Below, one piece after another: positions 6,756 to 17,093 of a DNA stretch of 52,010 bases (position 1 is its first letter; each line of letters starts with the position of its first letter). Made by a program: the position numbers and the translations under genes. A model generated the notes under the pieces. The model did not search any database, was not told where the DNA came from, and saw nothing but the letters and a program-made list of their open reading frames with translations. This DNA comes from Spirochaetota bacterium. GTDB lineage: Bacteria; Spirochaetota; UBA4802; JAGODF01. The stretch spans positions 305-52,314 of the forward strand of contig JAOAAF010000007.1 in NCBI GenBank assembly GCA_026419015.1, read 5' to 3'.

Positions 6756-7551
6756 TGCGATTGGTATATTCGATTCGGGTGTTGGTGGATTAACCGTCTG
6801 CAAGTCGCTAAAGGACATCATGCCAGCAGAGAACTTAATTTATTTTGGCGATACTGCACGATTCCCCTATGGAACTCGATCGAAAGAAACAATTATACGG
6901 TATTCGCGGGAAATTGTTTCGTATTTGGTATCGCGAAATGTAAAAATGGTCGTTATTGCATGTAACACTTCATCAGCAGTTGCACTCGATGTGTTGAAAG
7001 AAGAATTTGAGGTTCCAATTGTTGGTGTCATTAAAGCGGGTGCGCGCGCTGCATGTCGAATACAAACAAATGGCATTATTGGAGTAATCGGAACGCGTGC
7101 CACAGTCAATAGCCGTTCATATGAAAAGGCTATTTGCGAAATAGATCCGACCATTCAAGTATATCAACAGCACGCAACGATTTTTGTAGCGCTTACTGAA
7201 GAAGGATGGGTCGATGATGAAATCACGAGATTAGCTGCAAAAAAATACATTAGCGAAATGTATAACAAAAATGTTCGCACCCTTATATTGGGATGTACTC
7301 ACTTTCCACTTCTTAAAAAAGCCATTCTTGATGTATTTCCCGATCTTGTTCTTGTTGATTCTGGATACGAGGTTGCACTCGAAGTGCAACAGATGTTAAA
7401 AGAAAAAAATCTTGAAAATTCGGGAAATATGGGAAAAGTTGAACTCTATGCATCAGATATTACCGATACCCTTCAAATGTTGAAAAATATGTTTTTTGGG
7501 GAAAATGGGGCATCGATAAATAAACTTACTCTCAGCGGTGGAAAATTATGA
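6730..7551 (+). CDS. murI: Glutamate racemase; ATG at 6730 or 6739 preferred over the 6694 ORF start
   Basis: IGIFDSGVGGLTVCKSLKDIMPAENLIYFGDTARFPYG; VIACNTSSAV; LILGCTHFPLL. Confidence 0.95.
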   Translation: MEKMEKNTNAIGIFDSGVGGLTVCKSLKDIMPAENLIYFGDTARFPYGTRSKETIIRYSREIVSYLVSRNVKMVVIACNTSSAVALDVLKEEFEVPIVGVIKAGARAACRIQTNGIIGVIGTRATVNSRSYEKAICEIDPTIQVYQQHATIFVALTEEGWVDDEITRLAAKKYISEMYNKNVRTLILGCTHFPLLKKAILDVFPDLVLVDSGYEVALEVQQMLKEKNLENSGNMGKVELYASDITDTLQMLKNMFFGENGASINKLTLSGGKL

Positions 7552-8519
7552 AAAATAAACTCGCATGGAGCGCGGTGTTTTTATGCCTATTGCCAGTAAA
7601 AGGTGAGGGGTGGGAGCTTTTTGATAGAGTTATTGCAGTGGTAAACGATCGCCCCATTCTCGAAAGTGAGGTACACCAGCGTTTTGAGAGATTTATCCAA
7701 ATTCAACAGAAGAAAGGGAAAAAAATCCCACCATCAAAATTTTCGTATCATAAAAGCCGAGTGCTTGATTCGTTTATTGAGGATTCTCTTTTTGAACAGA
7801 TGGCAGAAGAGGAATCCATAATTGTGAGCGATGAGAAAATTGACGATCATATTGAAAAACTTATGAAGCGCTATAATATTAGTTCATTGAATGAGTTCAA
7901 AAATAAGATAGAAAAAAGTGAGAATATGAGCTTTGAGGAATATCGAGAACAGGTGCGCAAATCCATTATCCGAGAAATGGTGATGTCGCTGGCAGTAGGG
8001 GTCAATCCCCCTTCCGAACAACAAGCGCAGGAATGGTATAAGAAAAACATCGATAAAGTTGGATACGAATTTAATATTAACCATATCTTTCTTCGTTTGC
8101 GCAATAAGACGATAGCTGAGGAACGAAGAGTGAATAATGAGATGAAAGCGATTTTAGCAAAAATAAATAGCGGCATGTCTTTTGAAGAGGCTGCGAAGCG
8201 ATTTTCAGAAGATGTGAGTTCTAAGGGGAAAGGTGGAGCTTTAGGATGGGTGAAATTACATGAGATAGATCGCTTATTGGCAATGCAGATATTCGGGATG
8301 AATAAAGGAGGACAACTTTCTGGGATCATTAAATCGGGTGAAGGGTATCACATTGTAAAGTTCAATGGGAAAAGGCCGGTACCTTTTGAATCGATTAAGG
8401 ATATTATCTTTAGCATACTCTATAACGAAAGAATGAACGAACAAATGGAAAAATGGGCAGAACATAAACGCAAAGAATCCGATGTAAAAATTTTTATGGA
8501 TGACTATGTCTTAAATTAA
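7548..8519 (+). CDS. SurA-like periplasmic peptidyl-prolyl isomerase (parvulin)
   Basis: Signal peptide, SurA N-domain (DRVIAVVNDRPILESEVHQR), rotamase segment INHIFLRLR...FEEAAKRFSEDVSSKGKGGALGWV. Confidence 0.9.
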   Translation: MKNKLAWSAVFLCLLPVKGEGWELFDRVIAVVNDRPILESEVHQRFERFIQIQQKKGKKIPPSKFSYHKSRVLDSFIEDSLFEQMAEEESIIVSDEKIDDHIEKLMKRYNISSLNEFKNKIEKSENMSFEEYREQVRKSIIREMVMSLAVGVNPPSEQQAQEWYKKNIDKVGYEFNINHIFLRLRNKTIAEERRVNNEMKAILAKINSGMSFEEAAKRFSEDVSSKGKGGALGWVKLHEIDRLLAMQIFGMNKGGQLSGIIKSGEGYHIVKFNGKRPVPFESIKDIIFSILYNERMNEQMEKWAEHKRKESDVKIFMDDYVLN

Positions 8520-8551: not shown

Positions 8552-10033
8552 GTGAAAATTGGTGCGATAGTGTTGTTCCCGAAATCCATAAAAAAAGAAG
8601 AATTGTTTTTTCGTGGAACGTATATCCCAGAGGACATCCTTTTGAAATTAAAACGCATATCGAAAGTACGAGAAGTTTTTATGGTCGTTGGCAATGATTA
8701 TGATGGAGAAGTTCCGGTGGGCAGTGTAAAGATTGTTGGTAGTGAAGAAGGAGAAATGTTATTTTTAAAGAAGTTTTTTCGCAATTCTGATTTCGATCAC
8801 GCTCTGGTTGTCCATGCCGATTCGCCCTTTTTAGATTCTGAAATACTGCACGAAATGCTCCAGTTACATACCACATACCTTCCGGAATATACGTACTCTG
8901 AAAATGTCCCACCAGGATTTTGCGGAGAAATTGTCTCGAAAACGTTGATGGAAAGCGTACCAGATGAGGTGCAACCATCGATTTCGATTTCGTCGCTCAT
9001 TAAAGCGAATTTGCACAAATTCGATGTAGAAATATACTATTCCCACCCCGATATTCGCGACCGACGCGTTTCTTTTCGATCATCGGATCCCCGCGATAGG
9101 CGCATAATGGAAAGAATTGTCGAATTTTATGGAAGAATTCCACGATACAAGGACATTGGGGAAGTATTTCGTCAATTTCCGCAAGTCTTATATGTTTCTC
9201 CTTCGTATGTGGAAGTCGAGCTCACAGGAAAATGCGAGTTGGAGTGCATTTTTTGTTTTCGAAAGTCCTTTTCTGCCGAACATGGCAATATGGATCCTTC
9301 TATATTTCAAAAAATATTACAGGATATGCGCTATTTTCAATTGCCGTATCATATTTGCATTGGTGGTTCTGGCGAGCCGCTACTCCACCCACAGTTTTAC
9401 GAATTAATGGAGATGGCGCTGGCAGAAGAATCTGTCGCAACTGTAATAATAGAAACCAATGGAGTGTTAGCTGATGCAAATTTTGCACATTTTATTTCGA
9501 GAGCAAAAGAAAGAATTCGCGTAATTGTGAATCTTAATGGAATCGATGAAAAAACATATCTTTCGCTTCATGGAAAAGATTATTTTTCGAAAGTTGCATC
9601 AAATGTGGAACTTCTTCGAAATACCATACTGGAACCTGAGTGCCTTTATGTGCAAATTATGAAGATTAATGAAACGGAAAAATTTTTGGATGCCTATTAC
9701 GACATGTGGGAACAAAAAGGAGTGCCTATTATTCTCCAAAAACAAAATACATTTTTAGGCAGAATTCAAGATCGAAGGTATTCGGATCTTTCTCCAATTG
9801 AGAGAATTCCGTGTTGGCATTTACAGCGCGACCTGTATATCCTTTATGATGGGAAGGTATCATTTTGTAAGCAGGATGTAGAAGGTAAATTTAACCGCGG
9901 GAATGTGAAAGAGGTTTCATTAAAGGAAATTTTTGAAAATGGGATGTCGCATTTCGTTGAGAATTTTAAAGGAAACCTTTCCAAAAATCCCGATTGTGCC
10001 ATCTGCGATGAATGGTATACTTTTAATCTGTAA
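8552..10033 (+). CDS. Radical SAM/SPASM protein with N-terminal nucleotidyltransferase-like domain (spiro-SPASM type)
   Basis: GTG start after GGGGAGG; radical SAM motif CELECIFC (CxxxCxxC); C-terminal Cys cluster CW...FCKQD...CAIC; N-terminal HADSPFLDSEI and PPGFCGEIVS match the downstream SpsF-like protein. Confidence 0.88.
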   Translation: MKIGAIVLFPKSIKKEELFFRGTYIPEDILLKLKRISKVREVFMVVGNDYDGEVPVGSVKIVGSEEGEMLFLKKFFRNSDFDHALVVHADSPFLDSEILHEMLQLHTTYLPEYTYSENVPPGFCGEIVSKTLMESVPDEVQPSISISSLIKANLHKFDVEIYYSHPDIRDRRVSFRSSDPRDRRIMERIVEFYGRIPRYKDIGEVFRQFPQVLYVSPSYVEVELTGKCELECIFCFRKSFSAEHGNMDPSIFQKILQDMRYFQLPYHICIGGSGEPLLHPQFYELMEMALAEESVATVIIETNGVLADANFAHFISRAKERIRVIVNLNGIDEKTYLSLHGKDYFSKVASNVELLRNTILEPECLYVQIMKINETEKFLDAYYDMWEQKGVPIILQKQNTFLGRIQDRRYSDLSPIERIPCWHLQRDLYILYDGKVSFCKQDVEGKFNRGNVKEVSLKEIFENGMSHFVENFKGNLSKNPDCAICDEWYTFNL

Positions 10034-10042
10034 AGTGGTGCG

Positions 10043-10795
10043 ATGACGAAACCACGTGTGGTTGCAATAGTGCAGGCGCGCATGGCTTCGACGAGATTGA
10101 GCGGTAAAGCGCTACTCCCCCTTGCAGGGAAGCCAATTGTATATCGCGTGCTTGAGCGCGCAATGAGCATTCCGTCTGTGGATTGCGTTGTGTTAGCAAT
10201 ACCCCAAAAAAAAGAAGATGAAAAAATCATTGAAGCAGTTACCGACCTTTCGATTTCAATTTTTCAGGGTTCTGAGGAAAACGTTCTGGAAAGATTTTAT
10301 CTTGCTGCCGAAAAATTTTCTGCTGATATTGTGGTGCGCATTACCGCGGATAATCCTTTTACAGATGTCGAGTATGGCAATGAAACAGTTTTATGCGCAA
10401 TCGAAAATAAAAGCGATCTTTGTGCACCCCTTGGTCTTCCACTTGGATGTGCAGTTGAGGTGATTTCATTTGCTGCGCTTGAAATTGCACATCGATTGGG
10501 ACATCTGCCCTATCATCGGGAACATGTGAGCCCATACATAAAAGAACGGCCAGAAGAGTTTTCGATTGTTCGTTTTCCCGTTGCCATTGAACCCCGGTAT
10601 GCATCCTTGCGGCTTACGGTTGATACAGAGGAAGATTATCGACTTGCTTCGCTTCTATACGATGCGCTCTATAAAGGAAAGCCATTTCCATTACAACAAA
10701 CGCTTTCCTATTTGGATGCGCACCCGGAGTTGATTGAAATTAACAAACATGTCGCGCAACGGCCAATGACACATTATTCAGGCGGCTTCACGTGA
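10043..10795 (+). CDS. SpsF-type cytidylyltransferase
   Basis: VVAIVQARMASTRLSGKALLPLAGKPIVYRVLERA; GSEENVLERFYLAAEKFSADIVVRITADNPFTD. Confidence 0.9.
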   Translation: MTKPRVVAIVQARMASTRLSGKALLPLAGKPIVYRVLERAMSIPSVDCVVLAIPQKKEDEKIIEAVTDLSISIFQGSEENVLERFYLAAEKFSADIVVRITADNPFTDVEYGNETVLCAIENKSDLCAPLGLPLGCAVEVISFAALEIAHRLGHLPYHREHVSPYIKERPEEFSIVRFPVAIEPRYASLRLTVDTEEDYRLASLLYDALYKGKPFPLQQTLSYLDAHPELIEINKHVAQRPMTHYSGGFT

Positions 10796-11685
10796 TGTGG
10801 GATGTGTGGATTGTTACAGGAGTGAATGAGAATTTAGGAAGCGGCCATTTCCAGCGAATGGCAGCTCTTGCGTGGCGCCTTCGGCATCGATATTGCATGC
10901 GCGTTTGCATGCGGGTGATGCCATGCGTAGGAACAATCCCTCACGAAATACAGGAATTTATACAAAACGACGTGGATGGCGCACAACTCATCCTTCGCGA
11001 TATGCGCGATTCGTCAATTGAAGAAATTGCTTGGTTGAAAACGAAAGGGAAAGTATGCGTAATAGACGATAGAGGGATGGGAAGAAAAATAGCAGATTTT
11101 CGCATTGAGATATTGCCCCATTATGTAAAAACGGATGACATAATCGAAGGAAATTTTCTTTACGGATTTAATTTTATGAGGAGTCTTGAATTGATAGACG
11201 CTGAAACCGTTGAAAAAAATATCGATATCGCAATTTATGGGGGGAACAAACGTACAAAGGAACTGTTAATCTCACTTATTCCCGAGAATGCGAGGTATTG
11301 TCTGGTAGGAGGAGAAAAAATTTTTTTAGGCGAAAAAGGGATTTATGAACGCGCGGAGAATATCAACTATGCTTTTTCGCTATGTGCTTCGAAAGTGGCG
11401 CTAAGCCATTTTGGAATTTTTTTGTATGAGGCATCTTTGACAAAGTGTCATGTGGATTCGATTAATCCGACTGACTATCACTCGAGGCTCTCAGATTGTG
11501 CCCAAAATCGGATACGAATTACCAATTTTGGAACTTGGAATTCGCTTAACGTAAACGAAGCGCAAAAAACAATTCGATTGCAGATACAAAGACCAATATC
11601 ATGCGAAATATTCCCATCGCAGATTTTATCCACGGCGCTGGGGAGCATCGATGCATTTATTGAAGGGTTATTTGGAATGCTTTGA
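10792..11685 (+). CDS. PseG/SpsG-like nucleotide-sugar hydrolase or glycosyltransferase-like protein
   Basis: N-terminal LGSGHFQRMAALAWRLR (G-x-GHxxRxxxLA), CVIDDRGMGRK; overlaps upstream gene by 4 bp. Confidence 0.65.
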   Translation: MMWDVWIVTGVNENLGSGHFQRMAALAWRLRHRYCMRVCMRVMPCVGTIPHEIQEFIQNDVDGAQLILRDMRDSSIEEIAWLKTKGKVCVIDDRGMGRKIADFRIEILPHYVKTDDIIEGNFLYGFNFMRSLELIDAETVEKNIDIAIYGGNKRTKELLISLIPENARYCLVGGEKIFLGEKGIYERAENINYAFSLCASKVALSHFGIFLYEASLTKCHVDSINPTDYHSRLSDCAQNRIRITNFGTWNSLNVNEAQKTIRLQIQRPISCEIFPSQILSTALGSIDAFIEGLFGML

Positions 11686-15769: not shown

Positions 15770-16588
15770 TTATTTCACGGCATATATTTCCAACGTATCA
15801 GAAAAAGAAAGCCAATGAGAGACCTTTGCGTATATCCAGTTGAAAGGGTAAACTGAAGCAAGGTGGGGAAGAAAAAATCGTTCAGGGTGAATTCCACCTG
15901 GATATGTCATTATTTTAGAAAATTGTAATGATCGCAACAGGATGCGGACGCATCGTGGAGTAAAATTTATTCGATGATCAAGCGGATGGTTTTTAAACCA
16001 ATCGTTTTTATGGAAAAAAAACTGAGGGCCAAATGCAGAAGGGACAGAAAAGGCAAAAACCCCTCCTTTTTCTATTGCATCGCTTATTTTGGTAATTGCT
16101 CCTAATGGATTAGATAAATGTTCAATAAAATACCATGCGGTAATGACTGAATATTTTTTAGAGAGTTTCACATTTTCAAAACGGTCGTTTATTACGGGGA
16201 TGGCGTATTTTTTTTTACAATAATTGGCAGCTTCATGCGATATTTCGATTCCTGAAAGATTGGTAATGCCTTCGTCCATTGCCGATTTTAGGAAAAATCC
16301 GTATGCACAGCCGATATCCAATAAACTCGATATGTTCTTTGTAAGTGCTTTGATCCGTTGAATGCGTTTGCGAGAAAGATTATAAATGTTGTTGAAGTCT
16401 TCTACATATGTTTTTCCGTATTGGGCCTTATATTCGTCGGTAAAATATTTTTTGTCGTATTTGATTTCTCGATGAGTTTCATTGAATATCGCCGTGCAAA
16501 AGGTGCATTTGAAGAGAATCACATGGCCATTGTATAAGGGTTTAGTTTTTTTACTTTGGCAAATTGGGCATTCTTTTTGAATTTTCAT
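15770..16588 (-). CDS. Class I SAM-dependent methyltransferase with N-terminal zinc-ribbon-like Cys motifs
   Basis: MKIQKECPICQ...CTFC, LLDIGCAYGFFLKSAMDEG, SVITAWYFIEHLSNP; start 16588 avoids the overlap with the upstream gene. Confidence 0.85.
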   Translation of the reverse strand: MKIQKECPICQSKKTKPLYNGHVILFKCTFCTAIFNETHREIKYDKKYFTDEYKAQYGKTYVEDFNNIYNLSRKRIQRIKALTKNISSLLDIGCAYGFFLKSAMDEGITNLSGIEISHEAANYCKKKYAIPVINDRFENVKLSKKYSVITAWYFIEHLSNPLGAITKISDAIEKGGVFAFSVPSAFGPQFFFHKNDWFKNHPLDHRINFTPRCVRILLRSLQFSKIMTYPGGIHPERFFLPHLASVYPFNWIYAKVSHWLSFSDTLEIYAVK

Positions 16589-16592
16589 TGGT

Positions 16593-17093
16593 TTATGTAT
16601 TTTTTTTTCGCTTTTTTGCAGGTTCCACAACGATGTTGACTCCGCGAATTTTTGCTTTATCGAGCGATACGATAACGAGTTCGGCAAATTGTTCTGGCAC
16701 TTCGATAAAAGAGTAGGTGGAATGAATATCAATTTTTCCAATGTTTTTCCCATCGATCCCGGAACGCTTTACAATTTCACGGATGAGGTCTCCCGGTGTT
16801 ATTTTGTGATTTTTGCCAATGTTTATGAAAATGCGCGCGCGACCATCTTTTACATCTTCAAAAATTAGCTTTCCTGCCGGAGGATTGATAAAAATTTCTG
16901 AAGGATCAAAATCAAGGTCGGCGATATCGCCTAAATGCTCTTTAAGCAATGCAGCAGCGAGGAGGGTTTTTCCCTTAAAAAAGGGGAGATGTTTTGCCAA
17001 TTTTTTTACAAGCCTCACGTATTGCGACAGGTCGTCAGAAATGGCTGATTGCATAATTTTTTCAATTTTCCTTTTACTGTTTTTCATCAGCAT
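16593..17093 (-). CDS. Stand-alone DbpA-type RNA-binding domain protein
   Basis: ARIFINIGKNHKITPGDLIREIVKRSGIDGKNIGKIDIHSTYSFIEVPEQFAELVIVSLDKAKIRGVNIVVEPAK; no helicase core. Confidence 0.82.
   Translation of the reverse strand: MLMKNSKRKIEKIMQSAISDDLSQYVRLVKKLAKHLPFFKGKTLLAAALLKEHLGDIADLDFDPSEIFINPPAGKLIFEDVKDGRARIFINIGKNHKITPGDLIREIVKRSGIDGKNIGKIDIHSTYSFIEVPEQFAELVIVSLDKAKIRGVNIVVEPAKKRKKNT

Follow-up and report, generated by a model that had tools for sequence, protein, structure and literature searches.

A degenerate SpsF-like domain fused to a radical SAM/SPASM protein of spirochaetes and its possible link to flagellin glycosylation

Results

The gene at positions 8552-10033 of the analysed DNA (a 52,010-nucleotide stretch from a Spirochaetota bacterium, hereafter the window) encodes a spiro-SPASM protein in which an SpsF-like nucleotidyltransferase fold without its nucleotide-binding signature precedes a radical SAM barrel and a SPASM domain, and which belongs to a family where the radical SAM cluster motif has been lost repeatedly under purifying selection. 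Our leading explanation, held at close to an even chance, is that spiro-SPASM acts as a sugar-handling scaffold in a nonulosonate (flagellin glycan) pathway and that radical chemistry is a lineage-dependent extra.

Domain anatomy of the protein

The features of the gene, all on the forward strand, are as follows.

8552-10033, +, whole gene (open reading frame of 493 amino acids), spiro-SPASM protein, TIGR04321
8552-9187, +, N-terminal pseudo-cytidylyltransferase domain, residues 1-212 (hhalign, AlphaFold, Foldseek)
8579-8617, +, residues 10-22, where the nucleotide-binding signature is lost, with PKSIKKEELFFRG instead of ARMxSTRLxGK
8819-8836, +, DSPFLD, residues 90-95, counterpart of SpsF DNPF (D90/D103 and P92/P105 aligned)
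8909-8929, +, PPGFCGE loop, residues 120-126 (P120, G122 and E126 in common with P133, G135 and E139 of SpsF)
9050-9067, +, DIRDRR, residues 167-172, putative new site specific to the domain (D167, R172)
9218-9649, +, radical SAM barrel, residues 223-366 (PF04055, E 1.7e-16)
9233-9256, +, CELECIFC, the CxxxCxxC motif of radical SAM proteins, residues 228-235, intact in the window copy
9812-10006, +, SPASM domain (PF13186, E 4.5e-9) with C421, C439, C482 and C485

The protein is a member of the NCBIfam subfamily TIGR04321 (E 2.5e-115; 386 bits, where the cut-off is 250), its residues 20-492 matching model positions 19-509 of 510, and Pfam places the SPASM domain at residues 421-485. PF02348 on the isolated N-terminal domain (N-domain) gave 13.4 bits, below the Pfam gathering score of 22.6. 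The AlphaFold model of the full-length protein (pLDDT 94.2, pTM 0.91) predicts that the three modules are packed as one rigid body, and among solved structures the radical SAM half is closest in fold to BtrN and anSME, with DesII and sactipeptide enzymes also among the nearest matches. By its CxxxCxxC cluster ligands, the window copy falls within the radical SAM superfamily. In the literature searched, we found neither a use of the names "spiro-SPASM" and "TIGR04321" nor experimental work on this family.

The N-terminal domain is homologous to SpsF

The initial annotation had proposed, by comparing motifs, that region 8552-9200 is a degenerate paralogue of the cytidylyltransferase encoded next door. 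Profile comparison and the predicted fold confirm the N-domain as a degenerate nucleotidyltransferase related to SpsF and joined to the radical SAM/SPASM half, with an extent (8552-9187) close to the one proposed. In hhalign, the profile of residues 1-205 aligned with the SpsF profile over 196 columns at a probability of 98.7 and an E-value of 1.5e-16 (18% identity); the score was 104.7, compared with a maximum of 23.4 among 100 column shuffles and 16.9 for a reversed profile, which rules out chance resemblance. The match persisted when the profile was built only from relatives near the window protein (E 5.6e-12), only from distant relatives (2e-11), or when the single window domain sequence was compared with the SpsF profile (E 8e-8). 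Searches in the other direction agreed: the neighbouring SpsF matched TIGR04321 at 5.5e-7 (its residues 28-231 aligned with model positions 20-226), phmmer with this single SpsF as query reached spiro-SPASM proteins from other spirochaetes (1e-6), and the SpsF HMM recovered 95 spiro-SPASM ORFs (best 1e-16).

The predicted structure of residues 1-212 keeps a GT-A-like nucleotidyltransferase fold, as had been anticipated (pLDDT 95.6, pTM 0.91). The top Foldseek match was a cytidylyltransferase of Leptospira borgpetersenii (6oew, TM 0.81), and by sequence the neighbouring SpsF is likewise nearest to 6oew in the PDB (E 4.8e-27); phmmer of the N-domain against PDB gave no match. A generic Rossmann or GT-A likeness was considered and set aside, as KdsB profiles scored 41 against 109 with only the first half aligned and other nucleotidyltransferases appeared at lower TM in Foldseek. 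Neither of the two outcomes that the initial annotation had named as refuting, a missing GT-A fold and profile scores like those of shuffled controls, was therefore observed. Two motif pairs noticed in the initial annotation fall on aligned columns, namely HADSPF/TADNPF (D90/D103, P92/P105) and PPGFCGE/PLGCAVE (P120/P133, G122/G135, E126/E139).

Loss of the nucleotide site and a new set of invariant residues

Thirteen residues are invariant in 55 SpsF rows (Q11, R13, S16, R18, K22, G76, R84, R99, T101, D103, N104, E160, and H161), and among the 119 non-redundant spiro-SPASM proteins only the counterpart of D103 remains (D90, 74%). As had been claimed, the signature itself is replaced: Q11, R13, S16, R18, and K22 (each 100% in SpsF) have no counterpart in the N-domain, and the pattern QARxxSxRLxxK is missing from the window protein and from all 119 distinct relatives, so that the N-domain is a pseudo-cytidylyltransferase. 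The adjoining loop retains P120, G122, and E126, with G122 present in 119/119. The domain has also gained an invariant set of its own among the 119 relatives (H106, N155, E160, D167, R169, and R172; position 155 of the window copy is His), of which D167 and R172 occur in every relative and are not found in SpsF. The conservation pattern is that of a pseudo-enzyme which has acquired its own conserved site, not of a decaying domain. Binding of CTP or CMP, which the initial annotation had envisaged, is unlikely given that nearly every invariant residue on the nucleotide and triphosphate side of SpsF is gone, and binding of a CMP-sugar is doubtful for the same reason.

Repeated loss of the radical SAM cluster motif

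Of the 119 relatives, 42 have lost the CxxxCxxC motif, with many unrelated replacement residues, but every one has all four SPASM cysteines (119/119). When the tree is computed with the CxxxCxxC columns left out, at least 12 changes of the motif are required, 9 of which are forced by well-supported branches, and counting losses only from a midpoint root gives 17. A shifted or hidden motif in these sequences was also considered; only one of the 42 (L056) offers a variant, CxxxCxxxxC, which could still be a cluster site. A Treponema sequence with intact CxxxCxxC (L147) is nested in a well-supported group that includes cluster-less L024 and L030.

Across the full protein, close pairs within cluster-less lineages have a dN/dS of about 0.1-0.2, and after cluster loss the ratio is similarly low in the N-domain, the barrel, and the SPASM part (about 0.1 in all three), which rules out pseudogene decay. 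Thus, the protein is functional without the radical cluster, and considering also the loss of CxxxCxxC beside invariant SPASM cysteines, radical chemistry is optional. Conservation of the SAM-side residues G274, E275, E301, and T302 extends to sequences without the cluster ligands, and K397, P415, and H423 are examples of pocket residues that are likewise conserved. The four SPASM cysteines could hold a different metal.

Origin of the fusion

In a tree of 95 rows including 41 sampled N-domains and adjacent SpsF proteins, the N-domains form one clade (SH-aLRT 100) on a long stem outside the adjacent-SpsF clade (support 88). The initial annotation had invoked duplication and fusion; the fusion is upheld, but the domain is not a copy of the neighbouring gene in this genome. 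Recent local duplication is rejected by the tree, with the caveat that its branches are long and its deepest splits not firmly placed. The single clade on a long stem outside SpsF argues that the fusion is ancient and predates the radiation of the phylum. In a scan outside the phylum, nearly all of the best 80 of 519 matches were labelled spirochaete, and the family is likely restricted to Spirochaetota. One metagenome-assembled genome titled "Caldithrix sp." (L112) has a spiro-SPASM gene that branches among spirochaete sequences, and the bin is probably mislabelled.

Gene neighbourhood

The following neighbours of the gene are of interest here.

7548-8519, +, SurA-like peptidyl-prolyl isomerase, upstream neighbour (PF00639, E 2.7e-20)
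10043-10795, +, SpsF-type cytidylyltransferase with an intact QARMASTRLSGK signature (PF02348, E 2.8e-31)
10792-11685, +, SpsG/PseG-like protein (assigned via family linkage)
15770-16753, -, methyltransferase encoded on the opposite strand 4 kb downstream, a free-standing relative of the portion fused to SpsG elsewhere

Apart from SpsF, no protein of the genome assembly matches PF02348 strongly (the second match is weak, E 2e-5). The SpsG-like protein of the window had no direct match to PseG or any other family in Pfam and NCBIfam; members of its family in Treponema-type loci are fused to a methyltransferase, and one of these gave a PseG match (E 3.4e-6 on L067:1366-3300). The stand-alone methyltransferase of the window is therefore a lead for a candidate further component of the system, as judged from this relationship. 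The SurA-like gene, which many loci also have upstream of spiro-SPASM, belongs to a cluster (c3) found in 22 loci.

Among the 86 loci with enough flank, 75 have SpsF no more than 2.2 kb downstream of spiro-SPASM and in the same orientation (59/63 with intact CxxxCxxC and 16/23 cluster-less), and its signature is intact in 69 of these 75; ORF starts in the loci of relatives are first-start guesses. Treponema-type operons contain, in addition to the SpsG-methyltransferase fusion, a gene between spiro-SPASM and SpsF and an ATP-grasp ligase. The former (cluster c5; L047:4121-5113 and relatives, 11 loci) is about 340 residues long and had no match in Pfam or NCBIfam, and its consensus GGFD..PFWQ.LDFG.R..MWG looks like a GT2 glycosyltransferase. 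The latter (cluster c7; L047:108-1775, L067:3-1604, and relatives) is of the L-amino-acid-ligase type, stands at the end of the operon, and could add an acyl group of the nonulosonate.

Two unusual arrangements were observed. In a 1.14 Mb genome (L069:7428-10013), SpsF, SpsG, and methyltransferase are joined in one 862-residue ORF that adjoins a cluster-less spiro-SPASM gene. TPASS_0285, which is listed only as an Fe-S (SPASM) protein (PMC4403809), may be the spiro-SPASM gene of this type. In three Brachyspira-like loci (L054, L055, and L068), a cluster-less spiro-SPASM gene has neither SpsF nor SpsG next to it, and two of them share the same 140-residue unknown gene directly 3' of it.

Distribution among spirochaetes and flagellin glycosylation

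Among 296 spirochaete genomes surveyed, spiro-SPASM was above the cut-off in none of the 46 that either lack flagellin (15 genomes, families f45 and f49) or belong to family f39, a group of 31 small genomes, presumably Borreliaceae, that have flagellin but no NeuB. The remaining 250 flagellin-bearing genomes have a spiro-SPASM match in 247 cases, and in 227 it is above the cut-off. NeuB and MptE-like genes (PF01973, Maf superfamily) occur in nearly all genomes with spiro-SPASM; MptE-like genes were detected in 99 of 100 genomes, the exception being the sole f39 genome in that sample. With such genes nearly universal, the idea that the pseudo-domain is a missing flagellin glycosyltransferase becomes less needed.

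A 450.2 Da glycan on FlaB of T. denticola has been described (PMC9481697), glycosylation of Leptospira FlaB1 has been reported (PMC13144727), and the glycosylation sites are substituted in FlaB of B. burgdorferi (PMC7431986). Taken together with the neighbouring genes and the co-occurrence pattern, which is a correlation across one phylum, these data point to a role of spiro-SPASM in the flagellin nonulosonate pathway.

Discussion

A proposed sugar-handling scaffold and competing explanations

Under our leading explanation, spiro-SPASM would work together with live SpsF and SpsG to make or deliver CMP-activated nonulosonic acid for spirochaete flagellins. The pseudo-domain, no longer handling nucleotides, would hold the sugar or an SpsF partner, gripping it through the retained P-x-G...E loop and the new invariant His/Asn/Glu/Asp/Arg set, and would place the sugar against the barrel and the SPASM cluster. 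In lineages with intact CxxxCxxC, including that of the window, an extra 5'-deoxyadenosyl-radical step on the glycan might take place. In about a third of the sampled relatives this step appears to have been lost, so the constant job would be binding or scaffolding together with the SPASM cluster. Three points count against this explanation: the SAM-side residues are conserved without the cluster ligands, and a pure scaffold would need none of them; Brachyspira-like loci have no adjacent SpsF; and the SPASM cysteines could, as noted above, hold a different metal.

The initial annotation had suggested that the sugar is presented to the radical SAM site. This does not hold as a universal function because orthologues under purifying selection have repeatedly lost the cluster ligands, but it may apply to intact lineages such as that of the window. 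A stronger version, in which the pseudo-domain binds a sugar or CMP-sugar and passes it to an active radical SAM site for oxidation, deoxygenation, or other editing, with catalysis as the main function, is in our opinion unlikely. The nearest solved folds include BtrN and DesII, whose substrates are aminocyclitols and sugars, the window copy has intact CxxxCxxC, the SAM-side residues are conserved, and the gene is grouped with CMP-sugar genes; however, the 42 of 119 relatives without cluster ligands, the operon partners retained in 16 of 23 cluster-less loci with continuing purifying selection, and the loss of nucleotide-side residues, which makes CMP-sugar binding doubtful, all speak against it. 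We therefore rank sugar editing second and limit it to intact lineages.

SpsF-family cytidylyltransferases are dimers, and the pseudo-domain might instead pair with the live SpsF, acting in regulation or docking and coupling CMP-sugar synthesis to the downstream step. A dead paralogous domain beside a live SpsF in 75 of 86 loci, and a fold kept in a high-confidence model, favour such pairing, but loci without adjacent SpsF occur and the newly invariant positions may belong to a pocket and not to a surface, and we consider this account improbable. Least credible is a peptide- or protein-modifying SPASM maturase similar to anSME and sactipeptide synthases, whose GT-A-like domain would recognise a glycosylated or flagellar protein. 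Although such enzymes are among the best structural matches and the distribution of the family tracks flagellin, the constant neighbours are sugar-nucleotide genes and radical chemistry is dispensable, which leaves little probability for it.

Implications

Returning to the scaffold explanation, it is conceivable, at somewhat under an even chance, that this is a phylum-wide family in which the cytidylyltransferase is dead everywhere and the radical SAM part is repeatedly dying, and which purifying selection keeps for a non-radical function dependent on the SPASM metal cluster and on the binding of a flagellar sugar. If true, a radical SAM family would have turned into a scaffold many times over. 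The independent cluster losses beside an invariant SPASM domain offer a natural experiment on auxiliary Fe-S clusters without radical chemistry. A named but unexplained spirochaete family gains a domain anatomy, a probable pathway, and a testable function, and would be linked to flagellin glycans, which are required for spirochaete motility. Anyhow, annotation as spiro-SPASM should not be taken as evidence of radical SAM activity.

Comparison with known systems

With BtrN and anSME, the window protein shares the barrel plus auxiliary-cluster architecture and the intact CxxxCxxC; spiro-SPASM differs from them in its leading pseudo-transferase and in that the catalytic cluster is gone in a third of relatives. 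Compared with SpsF/PF02348 and 6oew, the N-domain has the whole fold, a collinear alignment, the P-x-G...E loop, and, in most relatives, the first metal Asp, whereas G76, R84, R99, T101, N104, E160, and H161 of SpsF are absent from it together with the nucleotide signature. The window protein belongs to TIGR04321, although the name of this family refers to the phylum and the radical SAM/SPASM half and to nothing else. Finally, SpsF and SpsG as neighbours, and NeuB and MptE-like genes in nearly all the same genomes, link spiro-SPASM to the pseudaminic and legionaminic acid pathways (NeuB, SpsF/PseF, SpsG/PseG, and Maf), which to our knowledge have been described with no radical SAM or SPASM component.
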